Part shown: positions 3,617 through 37,630 of the stretch, piece after piece
Layout: each line of letters begins with the position of its first letter
How positions within the stretch are numbered: position 1 is the first letter of the stretch
From: Candidatus Tectimicrobiota bacterium
GTDB taxonomy: Bacteria > JACPSX01
DNA length: 37,630 nucleotides
Direction of reading: 5' to 3'
NCBI GenBank assembly: GCA_016193065.1
Contig: JACPSX010000032.1
Location: forward strand, 1 to 37,630
Program-made: the position numbers and the translations under genes
The notes under the pieces: model-generated
Told to the model about the DNA's origin: nothing
Database searches by the model: none
Seen by the model: the letters and a program-made list of their open reading frames with translations, nothing else

Positions 3617-3682
3617 CTTGCCCACCCCCATCAGTTTATTGCCGATGAATTGCTATGGATTTGCAAGATGGGGGTGGGTAGG
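3617..3682. repeat. Inverted repeat (12-bp perfect stem) between bamD and queG
   Basis: CCCACCCCCATC (3621-3632) / GATGGGGGTGGG (3667-3678). Confidence 0.85.
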
Positions 3683-4773: not shown

Positions 4774-5697
4774 TTAAGATTTCACGTACTGCTTGCGCAG
4801 CAGCTCGGCCACGTCAATCGTGCGGGAAAACCAGACCTCCGGGTAACCCTTGATGTGCTTCAGCATCCCTTCCACGGCCTTGGAGCGGTTGGCGCGGCCC
4901 GAGATATACGGGTGCATCGTCACGATGAACATCTTGGGCTCCCGCTTGGCCTCCTCGTAGAGGACGTCAAACTCGTCCTGCCATACCCACAAAGCGTTGC
5001 GCGGGTTCCCGTATGGGCCCGGCGCCACCGTGGCCCCACCTCCCTGGCGCCGCACCGAACCGGGCATGTAGAGCTGGGCGTCGTCGGTGGCCACGGTGTA
5101 GGGGATCTCGACCATGGTCTTGCCGTTGACCTTGAGCAGGTAGGGGAGGTCATCGTTGAGGTAATCACTGCGCCAGATGAAGCCGTTTTCCAGAAGAAGA
5201 TTCAGGGTATTCTCGCTGGCCCGGATCTGCGGCGAGCGCCAGCCCACGAGCGGAGCACCGGAAATGTCCTCCAGAACCTGTTTTGTCTTGCGGATTACTT
5301 CGTTTTCTTGCTCCCGGTTCATCTCCCACAGGGATTCATGGAGATAGGCATGTCCTCCGATGTCGTGCCCCGCCTCGTGGATGGCCCGGGTGGCTTGGGG
5401 GTAGAATTCGGCGGTGCGCCCCGAGATCATGAAGCTCGCCTTGACCCCGTTGCGCTCCAGGATTTCCAGGATCCGCCAGACTCCCCGCCGGCCGCCGTAC
5501 TGGCGCTCCGTCAGCTCCATGTAATCGGGTTTCCCCGTCGGCAGCACAGGAGTCCCGAGCTCCGCTTGAAAGTCGAAGGTAATGAGAACGGCGATTCTGG
5601 CGCCGTCGGGCCAGTGAAAGTCCTCGGGAAGCTGGATCTCCGAGACATTGGGAAGCAAGTGAGACCCGGATTTGTTGTCACCTCGATGAAATTTCAT
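4774..5697 (-). CDS. Polysaccharide deacetylase family protein (NodB homology)
   Basis: 'RIAVLITFDFQAELG', 'GHDIGGHAYLHESLWEM', 'GWRSPQIRASENTL'. Confidence 0.85.
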   Translation of the reverse strand: MKFHRGDNKSGSHLLPNVSEIQLPEDFHWPDGARIAVLITFDFQAELGTPVLPTGKPDYMELTERQYGGRRGVWRILEILERNGVKASFMISGRTAEFYPQATRAIHEAGHDIGGHAYLHESLWEMNREQENEVIRKTKQVLEDISGAPLVGWRSPQIRASENTLNLLLENGFIWRSDYLNDDLPYLLKVNGKTMVEIPYTVATDDAQLYMPGSVRRQGGGATVAPGPYGNPRNALWVWQDEFDVLYEEAKREPKMFIVTMHPYISGRANRSKAVEGMLKHIKGYPEVWFSRTIDVAELLRKQYVKS

Positions 5698-5785: not shown

Positions 5786-5908
5786 GAGTCCTCGGGAGTG
5801 CCCCCTTGGCTCACGAAGGGCTTGCGACGCAAGTTGTTTTGGCCGGATTGAGAGTCTTCTTCCTCGCAACCCCTTAGATCGCCTACGGGGGCAACTCCCT
5901 CGGAACTC
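5786..5908. repeat. Dispersed structured element A, copy 1
   Basis: Similar to 32500..32620. Outer stem GAGTCC..GGGAGTGCCCCC / GGGGGC-A-ACTCCC..GGAACTC; inner stem AAGGGCTTGCGA / TCGCAACCCCTT; conserved loop GGCCGGATTGAG. Confidence 0.85.
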
Positions 5909-5950
5909 AAGGATGATAGTTGGCCGCTTGAGTGGGGCATGGTAAGAGGG

Positions 5951-6108
5951 GAGGCCGGGTGTGCCCCGTAGGGCGACTTGGCCCCAGTCCGAAATTCTCG
6001 GCCGGCGTTGTCCCGCACGGGCCTGCGGGTGGCGCCGGGGAAGCCTCCGCAGAGCCGCGCGAAAGTGGGACCCTCGTCAGGGTGACGGAGCGCGGATCGA
6101 GGAGGCGA
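5951..6108. repeat. Dispersed structured element B, copy 1
   Basis: Gap-free 158-nt match to 37473..37630 with 9 mismatches. Confidence 0.95.
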
Positions 6109-6156
6109 CCTGGTGACAGGACCCGCGGGCCGATTGGGGCGGGGCCAGAATTCTCC

Positions 6157-6185
6157 TTGACTCACCTGCGAAAATCCCCTAAAAT
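6157..6185 (+). promoter_or_regulatory. Sigma-70 promoter upstream of ffh: TTGACT-N17-TAAAAT
   Basis: TTGACT 6157-6162, 17-bp spacer, TAAAAT 6180-6185. Confidence 0.75.
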
Positions 6186-6259
6186 TCCGATTTTAAACGG
6201 GTTTTCAATACCTGTTCCGGACGGATGAACGCCAAGGCGGGAACTTTTTCGGGCCTGGA

Positions 6260-7606
6260 GTGGAGCGCAAGGGTATGTTTGAGGCACTGACCGGCCGGCT
6301 GGAGGGGATCTTTCAAAAACTTCGCGGACGGGGCCTGCTGACCGAGGAGAACATCCGGGAAGGTCTGCGGGAGGTCCGCTTGGCCCTCTTGGAGGCGGAT
6401 GTCCATTTCACGGTGGTCAAGCAGTTCGTCGAGCGGGTTCGAGAACGAGCTGTTGGTCAAGAGGTCCTGAAGAGTCTCACCCCCGGGCAGCAGGTGGTAA
6501 AGATTGTCCATGAGGAGCTGATCGGACTTCTGGGGGTGAACCATGTGCCGCTGGCTTTTGCTCAGCAGCCCCCGACCCTGATCTTCCTCGTGGGCCTGCA
6601 GGGTTCCGGAAAGACGACCACGGCCGGGAAGCTGGCGCTGTGGTGCCGGGAAAAGGGGCGTTCCCCCTTGCTGGTGGCTGCCGACGTACAGCGCCCCGCC
6701 GCTGCGGCCCAGTTGGCCACGCTGGGAGAGCAGTTGAAGGTTCCCGTTCTGACTCCGAAGCCCGGGGCCAAGCCCGTTGAAATTGCCAGGGAGGGGCTTT
6801 CCCGGGCGCGCAAGCAGGCTCACGATGTGGTCCTTGTGGACACGGCGGGCCGCTTGCACATCGATCCGGATCTCATGGCGGAGCTCAAGGAGATGGCGGC
6901 AGCCCTGCGGCCTCACGAGGTCTTGCTGGTGGCCGATGCGATGACGGGGCAGGACGCGGTCAACAGCGCCACCGCATTTCACGGGGGGGTGGGACTCACG
7001 GGGATCATTCTCACCAAGATGGACGGAGATGCCCGGGGCGGCGCCGCTCTCTCCATTCGGGCGGTCACCGGGCAAGCCATAAAGTTCATCGGGGTGGGGG
7101 AGAAGCTGGACCGCCTGGAAGCCTTTCATCCGGAGCGGATTGCCTCGCGAATTTTGGGGATGGGGGATGTCCTCTCTCTGGTCGAGAAGGCCCAGCAGGC
7201 TGTGGAGTTGGAAAATGCAGAGAGGCTGGCCCGCCGGATCCGGGAAGACAAGTTTACGCTGGATGATTTTCGTCTCCAGCTTCAGCAGGTCAAGCGGATG
7301 GGATCCCTGGAGCAAATCATGGAGATGATTCCCGGGTTCAAGAAGCTCAAAGGGGTGCAACCCGATGAGCGGGAACTGGTGAAGGTGCAGGCGATCATCG
7401 ACTCCATGACCGCCGAAGAACGGCGAGATATTGCCGTGATCAATAGCAGCCGCAAGCGGCGCATTGCCATGGGCAGCGGCACCCAGGCTCACGATGTGAA
7501 CCGGCTGCTCAAGCAGTTTACCGAGACCAAGAGGCTCATGCGCCAGATCTCCCGCGCCGGCCCTCAGGGACTGGGGAAAATGTTCCCCGGGCTGCGCGGT
7601 TCCTAG
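6260..7606 (+). CDS. ffh: Signal recognition particle protein Ffh
   Basis: 'FLVGLQGSGKTTTAGKLALW', 'VDTAGRLHID', 'GIILTKMDGDARGGAALSI', M-domain 'GSGTQAHDVNRLLKQF'. GTG 6260 or ATG 6275 (MFEALTGRL) start. Confidence 0.96.
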   Translation: MERKGMFEALTGRLEGIFQKLRGRGLLTEENIREGLREVRLALLEADVHFTVVKQFVERVRERAVGQEVLKSLTPGQQVVKIVHEELIGLLGVNHVPLAFAQQPPTLIFLVGLQGSGKTTTAGKLALWCREKGRSPLLVAADVQRPAAAAQLATLGEQLKVPVLTPKPGAKPVEIAREGLSRARKQAHDVVLVDTAGRLHIDPDLMAELKEMAAALRPHEVLLVADAMTGQDAVNSATAFHGGVGLTGIILTKMDGDARGGAALSIRAVTGQAIKFIGVGEKLDRLEAFHPERIASRILGMGDVLSLVEKAQQAVELENAERLARRIREDKFTLDDFRLQLQQVKRMGSLEQIMEMIPGFKKLKGVQPDERELVKVQAIIDSMTAEERRDIAVINSSRKRRIAMGSGTQAHDVNRLLKQFTETKRLMRQISRAGPQGLGKMFPGLRGS

Positions 7607-8946: not shown

Positions 8947-9763
8947 CGTCCTCACGCTCTTTCCGGAGATCCTGCAGTCCCCTTTGAACGCGAGTCTTCT
9001 GCGCAAGGCTCAGGAACGGGGGGCCGTCCGTTTCGCGATCCACAACCTGCGCGACTATGCTCTCGATCGTCACCGGACCACGGACGATTCTCCCTTTGGA
9101 GGGGGGGCCGGAATGGTTCTCAAGCCGGAGCCCATTGCCCGGGCTCTGGAAGCAGTCCGCGCCCCGGGTACCCGGCTTCCGGGTGCACCCAGGGTACCCG
9201 AGGGGGAGCGGGGGCGGGTCATCCTGCTCTGCCCTCAGGGCCGGCAGCTCAACCAGAAAATCGTCCGGGAACTGGCCGCTGAAAGCCGGCTGATTCTGGT
9301 CTGCGGCCACTATGAGGGAGTGGATGAACGCATCCGGTTGCACTATGTGGACGACGAGATCTCGATTGGGGACTACATCCTGACCGGGGGAGAGTTACCC
9401 GCCCTGGTCCTTCTGGACGCAGTGGTCCGGCTGCTTCCCGGGGCCCTGGGGAATCCCTGTTCGGCCGCTGACGAATCGTTTGGCGGGGGGGGGCTCGATT
9501 ACCCCCACTATACCCGGCCCCGGAAATTTGGCGACAAACGGGTGCCGGACGTTCTCCTTTCGGGCGATCACCGGGAAATTGCGCGCTGGAGGCGCAAGGA
9601 AGCGTTGCGCCGGACCCGGGAAAAGCGGCCCGATTTGCTGGATCCCGGTGCGCTGACACCGGAGGACCGCACGATCCTGGAAGAGATCGAGCGGGAGGAC
9701 CTGTTAAGAACTTCCTCGCCGGACGGTCGCGCCGTGGAGCCCTCCGCAGCGCGACAAAAATGA
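8936..9763 (+). CDS. trmD: tRNA (guanine-N1)-methyltransferase TrmD with a short proline-rich insertion
   Basis: 'MWIDVLTLFPEI', 'CGHYEGVDERI...DDEISIGDYILTGGELPALVLLDAV'. Confidence 0.96.
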   Translation: MWIDVLTLFPEILQSPLNASLLRKAQERGAVRFAIHNLRDYALDRHRTTDDSPFGGGAGMVLKPEPIARALEAVRAPGTRLPGAPRVPEGERGRVILLCPQGRQLNQKIVRELAAESRLILVCGHYEGVDERIRLHYVDDEISIGDYILTGGELPALVLLDAVVRLLPGALGNPCSAADESFGGGGLDYPHYTRPRKFGDKRVPDVLLSGDHREIARWRRKEALRRTREKRPDLLDPGALTPEDRTILEEIEREDLLRTSSPDGRAVEPSAARQK

Positions 9764-11965: not shown

Positions 11966-12045
11966 ACCCGCAAAGCGGGTACCCGGCAAAGCGGGTACCC
12001 GGCAAGGCGGGTACCCGGCAAAGCGCGGGTACCCACGAAGTGGGT
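11966..12045. repeat. Contiguous array of five mini-hairpin units (15-18 nt each)
   Basis: ACCCGCAAAGCGGGT | ACCCGGCAAAGCGGGT | ACCCGGCAAGGCGGGT | ACCCGGCAAAGCGCGGGT | ACCCACGAAGTGGGT, no spacers. Confidence 0.95.
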
Positions 12046-12050
12046 GCGGC

Positions 12051-26705: not shown

Positions 26706-26738
26706 CGGAGCACTTCCTGCCTTGCCCACTCCCATCTC

Positions 26739-26770
26739 TGGAAGCGGCTCCATAGGAAAGGGGCCGCTTC
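26739..26770 (+). terminator. Possible stem-loop downstream of ppdK
   Basis: GGAAGCGGC...GCCGCTTCC, 9-bp perfect stem; no U-tract, so terminator function is uncertain. Confidence 0.35.
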
Positions 26771-26787
26771 CCGCCCTTCGCTTCCGC

Positions 26788-26819
26788 ACCCACTTCGTGG
26801 GTACCCGCGCTTTGCGGGT
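26788..26819. repeat. Two mini-hairpin units, inverted copy of part of the 11966 array
   Basis: ACCCACTTCGTGGGT | ACCCGCGCTTTGCGGGT; reverse complement matches 12013-12049 except one inserted G. Confidence 0.93.
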
Positions 26820-26826
26820 GTTCCGT

Positions 26827-26869
26827 TGCTCCCGGCAGTTGCGCTCAGGACGGGAAAGTCGGCCCCCTC
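26827..26869. repeat. Dispersed repeat C, copy 1
   Basis: TGCTCCCGGCAGTTGCGCTCAGGACGGGAA...; 37/43 identical to 37374-37416 (28/30 over the first 30). Confidence 0.8.
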
Positions 26870-26889
26870 GGAAGAAGACTACCATGTAG

Positions 26890-26969
26890 GGGCACCCCTG
26901 CGCCTGCCTGTGCGTGTCCTGCCTGTGCCGCCACGGCAGACAGGTCCGCACGCAGACAGGTGGGTGCCC
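26890..26969. repeat. ~80-bp imperfect palindrome upstream of the FMN riboswitch
   Basis: GGGCACCCCTG...CCTGCCTGTGCCG-CCA-CGGCAGACAGG...CAGGTGGGTGCCC. Confidence 0.85.
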
Positions 26970-26995
26970 ACACAGCTAAGGTTCCACCTTGACAA

Positions 26996-31094: not shown

Positions 31095-31660
31095 AATTTT
31101 TCCTCTACCCCGCGGAGCTCACTCAAGCAAACTGTGAGCTTGTCTTCCTGCCGCTGTTCCAGGATCAAATTCCACTGAAGGGGGAGATCGGGTTTTTCGA
31201 TTGGTATTTGGACGGCCGGATTTCGCGGCTCCTCCGGCAGGGGAAACTCAAGGGGACCTTTGGCGAGTCCGGCTTGCTGCATGGGGCCGGGAAATTCCAG
31301 GTCGAGAAAGTCCTGGTGATCGGCCTGGGAGAGAGCTGGGGGTTGGCCAAGCGTGCCGAGCCCGTCTCCTCCCTGGTCGTGGATGTGATCTCCAAGCTGA
31401 AAGTATCCCACTTCGCCATGGCGATTCCGGGCCGGCTCCTCCCCCATCAGGACTATGAGAATCTGGCTGCTCAAGTCATCCAGGGGCTGGCAGACAGCGG
31501 AGGCCACCGCCAGTTCCCCCAGGTCATTGAGATCTATGAGCCGGACCGCAGGTTTTTCCAGTACCTCTCCACTTACTTCTCAGACCAGGTGGGGAACTGG
31601 GGCCCCGACATCACTTACGAGACCCGTGGGGCAACCGGTCCTTCCAGCAGCGGTGCATGA
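31091..31660 (+). CDS. Stand-alone protein resembling the M17 leucyl aminopeptidase N-terminal (macro-like) domain
   Basis: 'CELVFLPLFQDQIPLKGEIGFFDWYLDGRISRLLRQGKLKGTFGESGLLHGAGKFQVEKVLVIGLGE'; no catalytic C-terminal domain follows. Confidence 0.6.
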   Translation: MKFFLYPAELTQANCELVFLPLFQDQIPLKGEIGFFDWYLDGRISRLLRQGKLKGTFGESGLLHGAGKFQVEKVLVIGLGESWGLAKRAEPVSSLVVDVISKLKVSHFAMAIPGRLLPHQDYENLAAQVIQGLADSGGHRQFPQVIEIYEPDRRFFQYLSTYFSDQVGNWGPDITYETRGATGPSSSGA

Positions 31661-32385
31661 GAATCGGCATCTTCTCCGACGTTCACGGCAATCTGGAAGC
31701 GCTCCTGGTCGTGCTGGCCGGCCTGGAAGCGGAAAAAGTGGAGCGCCGGGCCTGCCTGGGGGATCTCGTGGGCTACGGCCCGGATCCCGGGGCCTGCATG
31801 GACCTGATTCGCCAACGCGCGGACGTGGTCCTGGCCGGAAACCACGACCACGCAGTTCTGGGGCTCACAGATATTTCTCTCTTTAATCCGTATGCACGGA
31901 CCGCCGTCCTTTGGACCCGAAGCCAGTTGACCCCGGCGGAGACTTCCTACCTGGCGGGTCTTCCCGTTTCTTGTTCTTGGGAGGGCCTGTGCCTGGCACA
32001 CTCCTCGCCGTGTGAGCCTGCAATGTGGCACTATGTCTTCTCGCTGGAAGAGGCGGAGACGAATTTCCACTGCTTCCGGGAGCCGATCTGTTTCGTGGGC
32101 CATTCCCATTCTCCCGCATTCTTTGTCCAAGAGGAGCCGGGCCGTGTGGTTTGCCGGCAGGCCACCCGGCTCGATATCGAGAAGGGCAAGCGTTACCTGA
32201 TCAATGTGGGGAGCGTGGGCCAGCCCAGGGATGGGGACCCTCGTGCCGGTTATTTGATTTACGACACGGACGCTGCCCGGATCGAGTTGAAACGGGTCGC
32301 ATACGATGTCGCCGCAACTCAGGCAAAGATGGCGCGGGCCGGCCTCCCCCGGTTTCTCATCGAGCGCTTGGCTGTCGGGCACTAG
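31657..32385 (+). CDS. Metallophosphoesterase
   Basis: 'MRIGIFSDVHGNLEALLVVL', 'GDLVGYGPDP', 'LAGNHDHAVLG', 'GHSHSPAFF', 'INVGSVGQPRDGDPRAGYLIYD'. Confidence 0.92.
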   Translation: MRIGIFSDVHGNLEALLVVLAGLEAEKVERRACLGDLVGYGPDPGACMDLIRQRADVVLAGNHDHAVLGLTDISLFNPYARTAVLWTRSQLTPAETSYLAGLPVSCSWEGLCLAHSSPCEPAMWHYVFSLEEAETNFHCFREPICFVGHSHSPAFFVQEEPGRVVCRQATRLDIEKGKRYLINVGSVGQPRDGDPRAGYLIYDTDAARIELKRVAYDVAATQAKMARAGLPRFLIERLAVGH

Positions 32386-32499
32386 GGATTGCGGGAAGGT
32401 GTTACCAACCTGCCGCTTCATGTCGTGCACGCAAACGATGGATCACAAGATGACAGAGGTTCGCCTGTCCTAGTTTCTGAGGGGTTGGCACACGGGCGA

Positions 32500-32620
32500 G
32501 GTCCTCGGGGGCGCCCCCTTGGGCTCCCGGAGAGCTTGCGACGAGAGATTTGCCGGCCGGATTGAGTATTCTGTACCTCGCAACCTCTCAGATCGCCTGC
32601 GGGGGCCACCCCCTCGGACC
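32500..32620. repeat. Dispersed structured element A, copy 2
   Basis: Same architecture as 5786..5908: GGTCCTCGGGGGCGCCCCC / GGGGGCCACCCCCTCGGACC; inner GAGAGCTTGCGA / TCGCAACCTCTC; GGCCGGATTGAG loop. Confidence 0.85.
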
Positions 32621-32692
32621 AAGATGACTAGCCCGCAGACCCGTTCGTGATTCCGCAGGCATACACTGGAGGTGGTAAGATCACAGTGGGAG

Positions 32693-32721: not shown

Positions 32722-32791
32722 GCATAATTTAAATAGCTTGGGCAGTGGAATGCAGGGGACACGGAAAATGCAGAAAGGATAGTTGGCAGGG

Positions 32792-35284
32792 ATGGAAGAA
32801 CATTACGATCCCCAGGAAATCGAGCTCAAGTGGCAGAAGCGCTGGGAGGAGAAAAACCTCTTTCGCGTCACGGAAGCAGCCGGGAAGCCAAAGTACTACC
32901 TTCTCGAGATGTTTCCCTACCCTTCGGGGAAAATCCACATGGGGCACGTGCGCAATTACTCGATCGGGGACGTGTTGGCGCGCAGCTTGCGCATGAAGGG
33001 AGTGAACGTTTTGCACCCCATGGGCTGGGATGCCTTCGGCCTGCCGGCGGAAAATGCCGCCATCCAGCACAATACTCACCCGGCCCGCTGGACTTTCGAC
33101 AACATTCGCACGATGCGCGCTCAGCTCAAACGCCTGGGGCTCAGCTATGACTGGGAGCGAGAGGTAGCTTCCTGCCATCCGGGATACTACCGATGGACCC
33201 AGTGGCTTTTCCTCAAAATGCTGGAGCGGGGATTGGCGTACCGGAAAATGGCTCTGGTCAACTGGTGCGGTTCCTGCCAGACGGTCCTCGCCAACGAGCA
33301 GGTGGAAGGGGGGTGCTGCTGGCGCTGCGGGGAGCCTGTGGGTGAAAAAGAGGTAGAGGGATGGTTTCTGAAGATCACGGACTACGCTGAGCGCCTTCTC
33401 CAGGGGTGCGACAAGCTTGCGGAGGGCTGGCCCGAGCGGGTGCTGGTCATGCAGCGGAACTGGATCGGCAAGAGCTTTGGGGCCGAAGTTTCCTTCCCCG
33501 TGGAGGGAGCCGCCGCAGAGATCCGGATCTTTACGACCCGTTCCGACACTCTCTACGGGGCGACTTTCATGATCCTGGCGCCTGAGCATCCCCTGGTCAA
33601 GCGGCTTGTGGCGGGTACTGCTCAGGAAGCTGCGGTCCTGGAGTTTGTGCGACAGGTGGCCCGGGAGGACCGACTGCTGCGCGGCGCCGAGACGACCGAG
33701 AAACGGGGGGTTTTTACCGGCCGTTGCGCCATCAACCCTCTGACCGGAAAACCCATTCCCATTTGGGTGGCCAATTACGTCTTGATGGAGTACGGCACCG
33801 GGGCCATCATGGCGGTGCCCGCTCATGACCAGCGGGATCTGGAATTTGCCCGCAAGTACGCTCTCCCGGTGCGCGTCGTCATCTATCCCCGGCAGGGGGA
33901 AATTGATGAGAAAACGATGACCGAGGCGTATGTGGAGGCGGGCTATCTGGTGAATTCGGGACGGTTCAACGGTCTTGGCAACGAAGAGGCCCAAGGGAAA
34001 ATCATCGCCTACCTGGAGGAGAAAAAAATCGGCCGCGGAGCCGTCAATTACCGCCTGCGCGACTGGGGGATCTCGCGGCAACGCTACTGGGGTTGCCCGA
34101 TTCCCGTAGTCTATTGCCAGGAGTGTGATGTCATCCCCGTCCCTTACGAAGATTTGCCGGTGATTCTGCCGCTTGATGTCCCCGTGACGCCAGAAGGGGG
34201 CTCTCCGCTGGGCCGAGACAGCCGCTTCGTGGAGAGCTCCTGCCCCCGTTGCGGTGGCCGGGCCCGGCGGGAAACGGATACGATGGACACGTTTATCTGC
34301 TCCTCCTGGTATTTTGACCGCTACACCTCCCCCCGTTTTGAAGAAGGACCCGTGGATCCCAAAGCGATCCGCTACTGGATGCCGGTCGACCAGTACATCG
34401 GCGGCATCGAACATGCCGTCCTGCATCTGTTGTACGCCCGGTTTTTCACCATGGTTCTCAAGGACATGGGTCTGATCCACGTGGAGGAACCGTTTCAGCG
34501 GCTCCTGACCCAGGGGATGGTGATCAAGGACGGGGCCAAGATGGCCAAGTCCAAGGGGAACGTGGTCGATCCCGACGCAATCATCCGCCGTTATGGTGCC
34601 GACACTGCCCGCCTCTTCATCCTGTTTGCCGCGCCTCCGGAAAAAGATCTGGAATGGAGCGATCAGGGGGTGGAGGGGAGCCACCGGTTTCTGCAGCGGC
34701 TCTGGCGCCTGGTGCAGCAGCATCGGGAGCGCCTGGCCGGGGTGAACCTCCCCTGCGATGGAGCCGGAAGCCTTCCGGAGCCGCTGCGGCAGTTGCGCCG
34801 CCGCACTCATCTGACCGTGAAACGGGTGACGGAAGATCTCGGGGATCGGTTTCACTTCAACACTGCCCTGAGCGCCATCATGGAGCTGGTCAACGATCTG
34901 TACCGCTTCGACGTCGAGGCCCAGAATTCCCCGGCGGCCGCCGGCGTTTTGCGGGAGGCCCTGGAGATCTGCCTGCAGCTCCTGTCGCCGTTTGCACCGC
35001 ACCTGGCCGATGAGCTCTGGGAGCAACTGGGACACACGTCCTGCCTTATCGAACATCCCTGGCCCACCTGGGATCCGGCCTGCATCGAGGCTCAAGAGCA
35101 CTTGATCGTGGTCCAGGTAAACGGCAAGGTGCGCGGGAAGTTGACGATCAGACCGGGAACCCCGGAAGAGGAGATCCGGCGCCTGGCCCTGGAAAACGAC
35201 CGGGTGCAGCGCTGGACCGCGGGGAAAGAGGTGAAGAAGATCGTGGTGGTTCCCGAGAAGCTCGTGAACGTGGTGGTGGCATGA
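32792..35284 (+). CDS. leuS: Leucyl-tRNA synthetase
   Basis: '[24 protein letters not shown]', '[17 protein letters not shown]', '[12 protein letters not shown]'. Confidence 0.97.
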
Positions 35285-37099: not shown

Positions 37100-37373
37100 T
37101 TGGTTTCCTCCTCAGAGACAATCGCTTGCATCAGGTACCACAAGGGCTTTCCCCTGTCAAGGCCTTTCTCCCCTTGCCTACCCCCAGTTTCTGCCTGCGC
37201 TATTGCGATCGGGACTGCCCTCCCGCCCTTCGCTTCACGCCTCCCGCAGCGACCCTTCTCGGGGCGCCCAGGGTGGGAGCCCTCCGCTACCGCCACGGTA
37301 AGTTCACGGCTGCCTGCAAGCACGTCTAGGCTACGCGGTTTCCCATCCCTGGCCGCTCCCGGTGGGTCCCCGC

Positions 37374-37416
37374 TGCTCCCGGCAGTTTCGCTCAGGGCGG
37401 GAATGGCAGCCCTCTC
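37374..37416. repeat. Dispersed repeat C, copy 2
   Basis: TGCTCCCGGCAGTTTCGCTCAGGGCGGGAA...; see 26827-26869. Confidence 0.8.
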
Positions 37417-37472
37417 AATGCTCTCCCTTCTAGGGGGTAGCTCCTGCAGGCGACCGAACAGGGTTGCTGGAA

Positions 37473-37630
37473 GAGACCGGGTGTCCCCCGCAGGGCGACT
37501 TGGCCCCAGTCCGAAATTCTTGGCCGGCGTCGTCCCGCACGGGCCAGCGGGTGGCGCCGGGGAAGCCTCCGCGGAGGCGCGCGAAAGTGGGACCCTCGTC
37601 AGGGTGGCGGAGCGCGGATCGAGGAGGCGA
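37473..37630. repeat. Dispersed structured element B, copy 2 (cut by window end)
   Basis: 149/158 identical to 5951..6108, no gaps. Confidence 0.95.

Follow-up and report, generated by a model that had tools for sequence, protein, structure and literature searches.

Element A, an imperfect hairpin of about 116-120 bp, very probably forms the left one of the internal hairpins in a family of MITE-like, non-autonomous DNA transposons; the pairing of its arms has been kept either by selection or by arm-copying repair. We judge this family to be a new one of a known kind, the bacterial MITEs, with an unusually modular hairpin-in-hairpin architecture. The window, i.e. the whole stretch of 37,630 nucleotides of Candidatus Tectimicrobiota bacterium that was analysed, is contig C15 of a 2.9-Mb genome, which is 86% complete, consists of 294 contigs and is broken at many repeats. 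It contains two copies of A, the first of which, the focal copy, represents either a fragment or a mosaic.

The family-wide conserved part of A, which reads TCCTCGG...CCTCGGA and is composed of a left arm, a variable loop, and a right arm, extends from 5789 to 5904 in copy 1 and from 32502 to 32618 in copy 2, in both cases on the plus strand. Copy 1 was matched by nhmmer and by the covariance model at 5789-5905 (130.9 bits), and copy 2 scored 131.4 bits with the covariance model. The outermost GAG/CTC (5786-5788 / 5906-5908) is paired in copy 1 only. The left strand of the inner stem (AAGGG-C-TTGCGA), which includes a conserved C.C mismatch, is located approximately at 5816-5828 on the plus strand and its partner at about 5864-5875. 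A sequence-only reading of the window had described two copies folding into one and the same hairpin, and this description holds: the same imperfect hairpin is obtained from both strands of both copies with z-scores of -2.9 to -4.9 relative to shuffled sequences, and the three double changes named in that reading are exact (5797A-5896T vs 32510G-32610C, 5816A-5875T vs 32530G-32589C, and 5819G-5872C vs 32533A-32586T). Across the A copies the C.C mismatch is unchanging, the unpaired internal loops are conserved, and a 5x5 internal loop is present in nearly all of them; the mean column identity is 0.94 in the stems, 0.89 in the internal loops, and 0.78 in the hairpin loop, which is the most variable part of A. 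The loop motif GGCCGGATTGAG, previously called invariant, occurs in further copies in variants such as GGCTGAATCGAG and GGCCAAATCGAG.

The dispersed nature of A was confirmed by searches of the host genome, which gave 36 blastn matches to copy 1 and 37 genome-wide matches to the covariance model, far beyond chance, with 32 distinct, near full-length copies among the covariance-model matches examined; script scans covered selected stretches of the genome. No ORF of 150 aa or more is overlapped by 21 of the 32 copies, both window copies among them, and the ORFs overlapped by the remaining copies may be spurious in this G+C-rich DNA. Relatives of A were found neither in 40 other genomes by DNA search nor in 289 other genomes by covariance model, the nearest of which share only the domain with the host, nor in the viral contigs, phages or plasmids searched. 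A single match in a Gemmatimonadales MAG (L036 1403-1426) to a 24-base pattern of the right arm is attributed to chance, the rest of A and its arms being missing around it. Rfam 15 gave no covariance-model match in the window at the gathering score and none at E up to 1 in seven loci, in agreement with the earlier reading, in which A was not recognised as a member of a known family.

The parent element of A is non-coding, about 240-460 bp long (237-464 bp), and is bounded on each side by an 18-bp terminal inverted repeat, CTTGCCCACCCCCAGTTT or its reverse complement. A search that tolerated at most 2 mismatches in 16 bases detected 45 terminal-repeat sites versus 3 for a reversed control pattern. 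Seven elements (237-452 bp) possess both ends, and six of these elements contain A; when the 10 bp adjoining their two ends are compared, 7-10 positions agree, as against a mean of 2.4 and a maximum of 6 in a control in which left and right flanks were taken from different elements. The 10-bp target-site duplications are perfect in C153 (ATTTCTCGGT) and C14 (CGATCCGTCC), whereas 9 of 10 bases match in C246, C123, and C61, 8 in C201, and 7 in C36. The usual order in many loci is end, spacer, A, domain II, end; in the canonical element the spacer comprises about 30 bp, and domain II is a second long imperfect hairpin of about 230-280 bp. The C36 element contains A only, and the C61 element contains domain II but no A. 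Recognisable ends are lacking in the vicinity of about 12 of the 32 A copies; A may therefore have a further means of spreading.

An autonomous transposase copy with the family ends was not found in the genome, 86% complete and broken at repeats as it is, and among the matches listed no two ends 0.7-4 kb from each other formed a credible inward-facing pair; the partner enzyme with these ends may be missing because of the broken assembly. Two apparent long pairs of terminal repeats (C182 27145-28362 and C142 625-1775) are regarded as spurious, as one end of each has 5 mismatches; C60 535-666 and the right end of C78 at 8498 are treated likewise, since they lack the duplication. The only PF01609 transposase ORF (484 aa, on C242, L121) has a further ORF, also transposase-like, as its neighbour on the opposite strand; it was rejected as the partner, since its ends do not match (best 6 mismatches of 18). 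The sequence-only reading had allowed that A might prove to be the end of a known IS; A is located in the interior of a MITE-like element, and an IS that matches was not found.

Copy 1 is located between a polysaccharide-deacetylase-like gene (4774-5697, minus strand) and an ORF without Pfam match (6179-7492, minus strand), and copy 2 between a metallophosphoesterase gene (31657-32385, plus strand) and the leucyl-tRNA synthetase gene (32783-35284, plus strand). As both copies are on the plus strand, they have opposite orientations relative to their flanking genes. The focal locus consists of A, a spacer (5905-5949, plus), the left part of a palindrome B (GGAGGCCGGGTGTGCCCC..., 5950-5976, plus) and a palindromic module C (5977-6134, plus), and terminal repeats are absent. 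The spacer is common to three other A copies that are followed by B (L002, L006, L020), B is apparently interrupted by module C, and a stretch made up of B and module C recurs with 94% identity (5951-6108 and 37473-37630). Around copy 2, weak matches found by eye suggest decayed ends: a possible left terminal inverted repeat at 32459-32476 (plus, 11 of 18 matches), directly preceded by ATGACAGAG (32450-32458), 7 of the 9 bases of which match those after the right end, and, at 32663-32679 (minus), ACACTGGAGGTGGTAAG as a possible right terminal inverted repeat, after which comes ATCACAGTG. Further family elements are present in the window. A terminal inverted repeat at 37173-37190 (plus, 1 mismatch) belongs to an element that runs into the contig end, and domain II is located at 37200-37425 (minus); another element, at 26721-26872 (minus), lacks A and contains a terminal repeat with 4 mismatches (26721-26738) and domain II in two pieces. 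The latter site, situated between pyruvate phosphate dikinase-like and ribD-like genes, also harbours a module D with CCTGCCTGTGCG repeats (26721-26970). At 3617-3682, two facing terminal-repeat-like sequences with 4 mismatches each occur within 66 bp, and a variant of this sequence, TTGCCCACCCCCATCA, is also found on C43 and C177.

The palindromes B (GGAGACCGGGTGTGCCCC...GGGGCACCCCGGTCTCC), C, and D recur beside or inside family elements, and module D holds the GTAG-led palindrome GTAGGGGCACCC...GGGTGCCCTC. In C94, C55, and C139, B stands between the left and right arms in place of the A-type hairpin loop, which in C143 is replaced by another palindrome; short GGGTACCC hairpins take the place of parts of the left arm of A (L017, L019, L030) and of domain II. 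Module C is a palindromic repeat in its own right with further copies on C57, C35, and C201. A cluster of GGGTACCCG mini-palindromes is located at 11966-12049, part of which matches 26784-26819 in inverted orientation with 97% identity; further mini-hairpins of this type occur at 9165-9193 and, elsewhere, inside A and domain II. Rather speculatively, and with more doubt than confidence, the interior of the mini-transposon could be regarded as a branching set of hairpins which grows by the gain of hairpins in loops and stems, as with B replacing the A loop and GGGTACCC in A and domain II, the fold itself being selected as single-stranded DNA or RNA, e.g. as a transposase signal or by the survival of fold-preserving insertions alone.

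The base pairing of the A arms is maintained. In 23 aligned copies, 97.4% of the cells pair and nine pairs are changed on both sides; the number of double-change cells is 27 versus 5.9 in shuffles, and the covariation signal is lost when the partner is slid by 1-3 columns. In a purpose-made tree-based simulation serving as null model (27 copies, 1000 simulations), a mean of 0.4 branches with a pair-keeping double change was expected, with a maximum of 4, whereas nine such branches were observed; three of the nine double changes fall on a single branch (C246), and three changes affected the pair at alignment positions 31 and 84. It is this excess over the tree null and the controls from which maintenance of pairing follows. 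The original proposal of selection for structure rather than simple duplication stands as far as maintained pairing is concerned; selection as the cause is a possibility, but correction of one arm by the other would give the same pattern, and the dispersed copies did arise by duplication or transposition. The pairing may have been kept by selection of a DNA hairpin, by selection of an RNA, or by arm correction, causes which are not separated by these data.

Quasi-palindrome correction is known to occur at imperfect palindromes of bacteria, and the double changes may be a mutational by-product of such correction from arm to arm that involves no selection of the fold, an explanation of the covariation that is compatible with the MITE reading and to which we assign a substantial, though less than even, chance. 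Four of the nine double changes exchange the pair by transversion (C-G to G-C, for example), for which no G.U intermediate is possible, and a strand bias is absent, both as expected for correction; on the other hand, the C.C mismatch and the 5x5 internal loop are still present in almost every copy, although the copies may be too young to have lost them. The strand test is based on the consideration that in an RNA selected from one strand G.U would be tolerated there and A.C would not. One-sided stem deviations comprise 11 G.U and 8 A.C cells (6 vs 6 sites) in A and 31 G.U and 29 A.C cells (15 vs 14 sites) in domain II, counts which are small and whose balance gives no support for a one-strand RNA. 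That A is a structured non-coding RNA, or a domain of a larger RNA covering the whole element, with a selected fold spread by the transposon, would account for the covariation, for the conservation of the internal loops relative to the hairpin loop and the unchanging C.C mismatch, and for the better folding of the plus strand of domain II in 19 of 19 copies. We nevertheless consider it improbable: besides the balanced deviations in both A and domain II and the absence of an Rfam match, in 21 of 27 copies the folding of the minus strand of A equals or surpasses that of the plus strand, the window copies are oppositely oriented with respect to the genes around them, and nowhere is A more variable than in its loop. 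A structured RNA standing alone is not supported: a strand bias is lacking in the stem deviations, and in most cases A forms one module within a larger element that has 18-bp terminal inverted repeats and 10-bp target duplications.

More improbable still is that A belongs to the REP/BIME-like palindromic repeats and is mobilised by a Y1 (RAYT/IS200-type) transposase without involvement of the terminal repeats. The end-less A copies at some loci, the BIME-like mosaics with other palindromes, two Y1 transposase-like genes in the genome, and the GTAG-led palindrome in module D would fit this view, but the flanks examined of both Y1 genes are devoid of any family module, and many A copies reside in elements that have terminal repeats and are flanked by 10-bp duplications, features that Y1 enzymes are not known to make. 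A is also far longer than 20-40 bp and carries neither GTAG nor CGTC tags at its ends; by length, tag, and neighbouring gene, A does not qualify as a REP.

REPs are 20-40 bp in length and many of them have GTAG or CGTC tags and associated RAYT genes, while BIMEs are mosaics of palindromic units in both orientations (PMC2817692, PMC3733652); mosaics of several palindromic units in both orientations are found here as well, whereas A lacks the tags and RAYT genes of REPs. Bacterial MITEs are short, non-coding, dispersed, and mostly intergenic elements with terminal inverted repeats and target-site duplications, the transcripts of which are predicted to form long stem-loops (PMC10969869, PMC2229807). 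The parent element of A resembles them in all of these features, but it is G+C-rich instead of A+T-rich, has no TA at its ends, generates duplications of 10 bp, and contains two internal hairpins and nested palindromes, and its parent IS was not found. YPAL/RU-2 of Yersinia, a palindromic element of about 168 bp that is not A+T-rich, possesses internal inverted repeats, and causes duplications on insertion (PMC2229807), is similar by description in all of these features, with the difference that its duplications range from 3 to 26 bp (PMC2229807), compared with 10 bp and separate 18-bp ends here. ERIC/IRU/RU-1, a 127-bp intergenic repeat with a long stem-loop fold (PMC2229807), resembles A by description in this fold, but is a complete element with TA termini, whereas A is part of a larger one. 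A literature search under limited terms yielded no bacterial repeats with compensatory changes.

In the MITE-like transposon family that we favour, recognition of the ends would be the task of a DDE transposase supplied in trans, whose staggered cut on insertion of the element would give rise to the 10-bp duplications observed. Copies would then have decayed, lost parts, and joined other palindromes, leaving mosaics in which A is either devoid of ends (5789-5904) or accompanied by apparently decayed ones (32502-32618), and the pairing of the A arms would be kept either because the hairpin is selected or because repair uses one arm as the template for the other. A palindromic module of a mini-transposon can thus give rise to compensatory changes among its dispersed copies, which are usually taken as the sign of a functional RNA. 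The approximately 30 copies of A provide material for telling selection from arm correction, and the nested hairpin mosaic lends itself well to studying how such repeats assemble.
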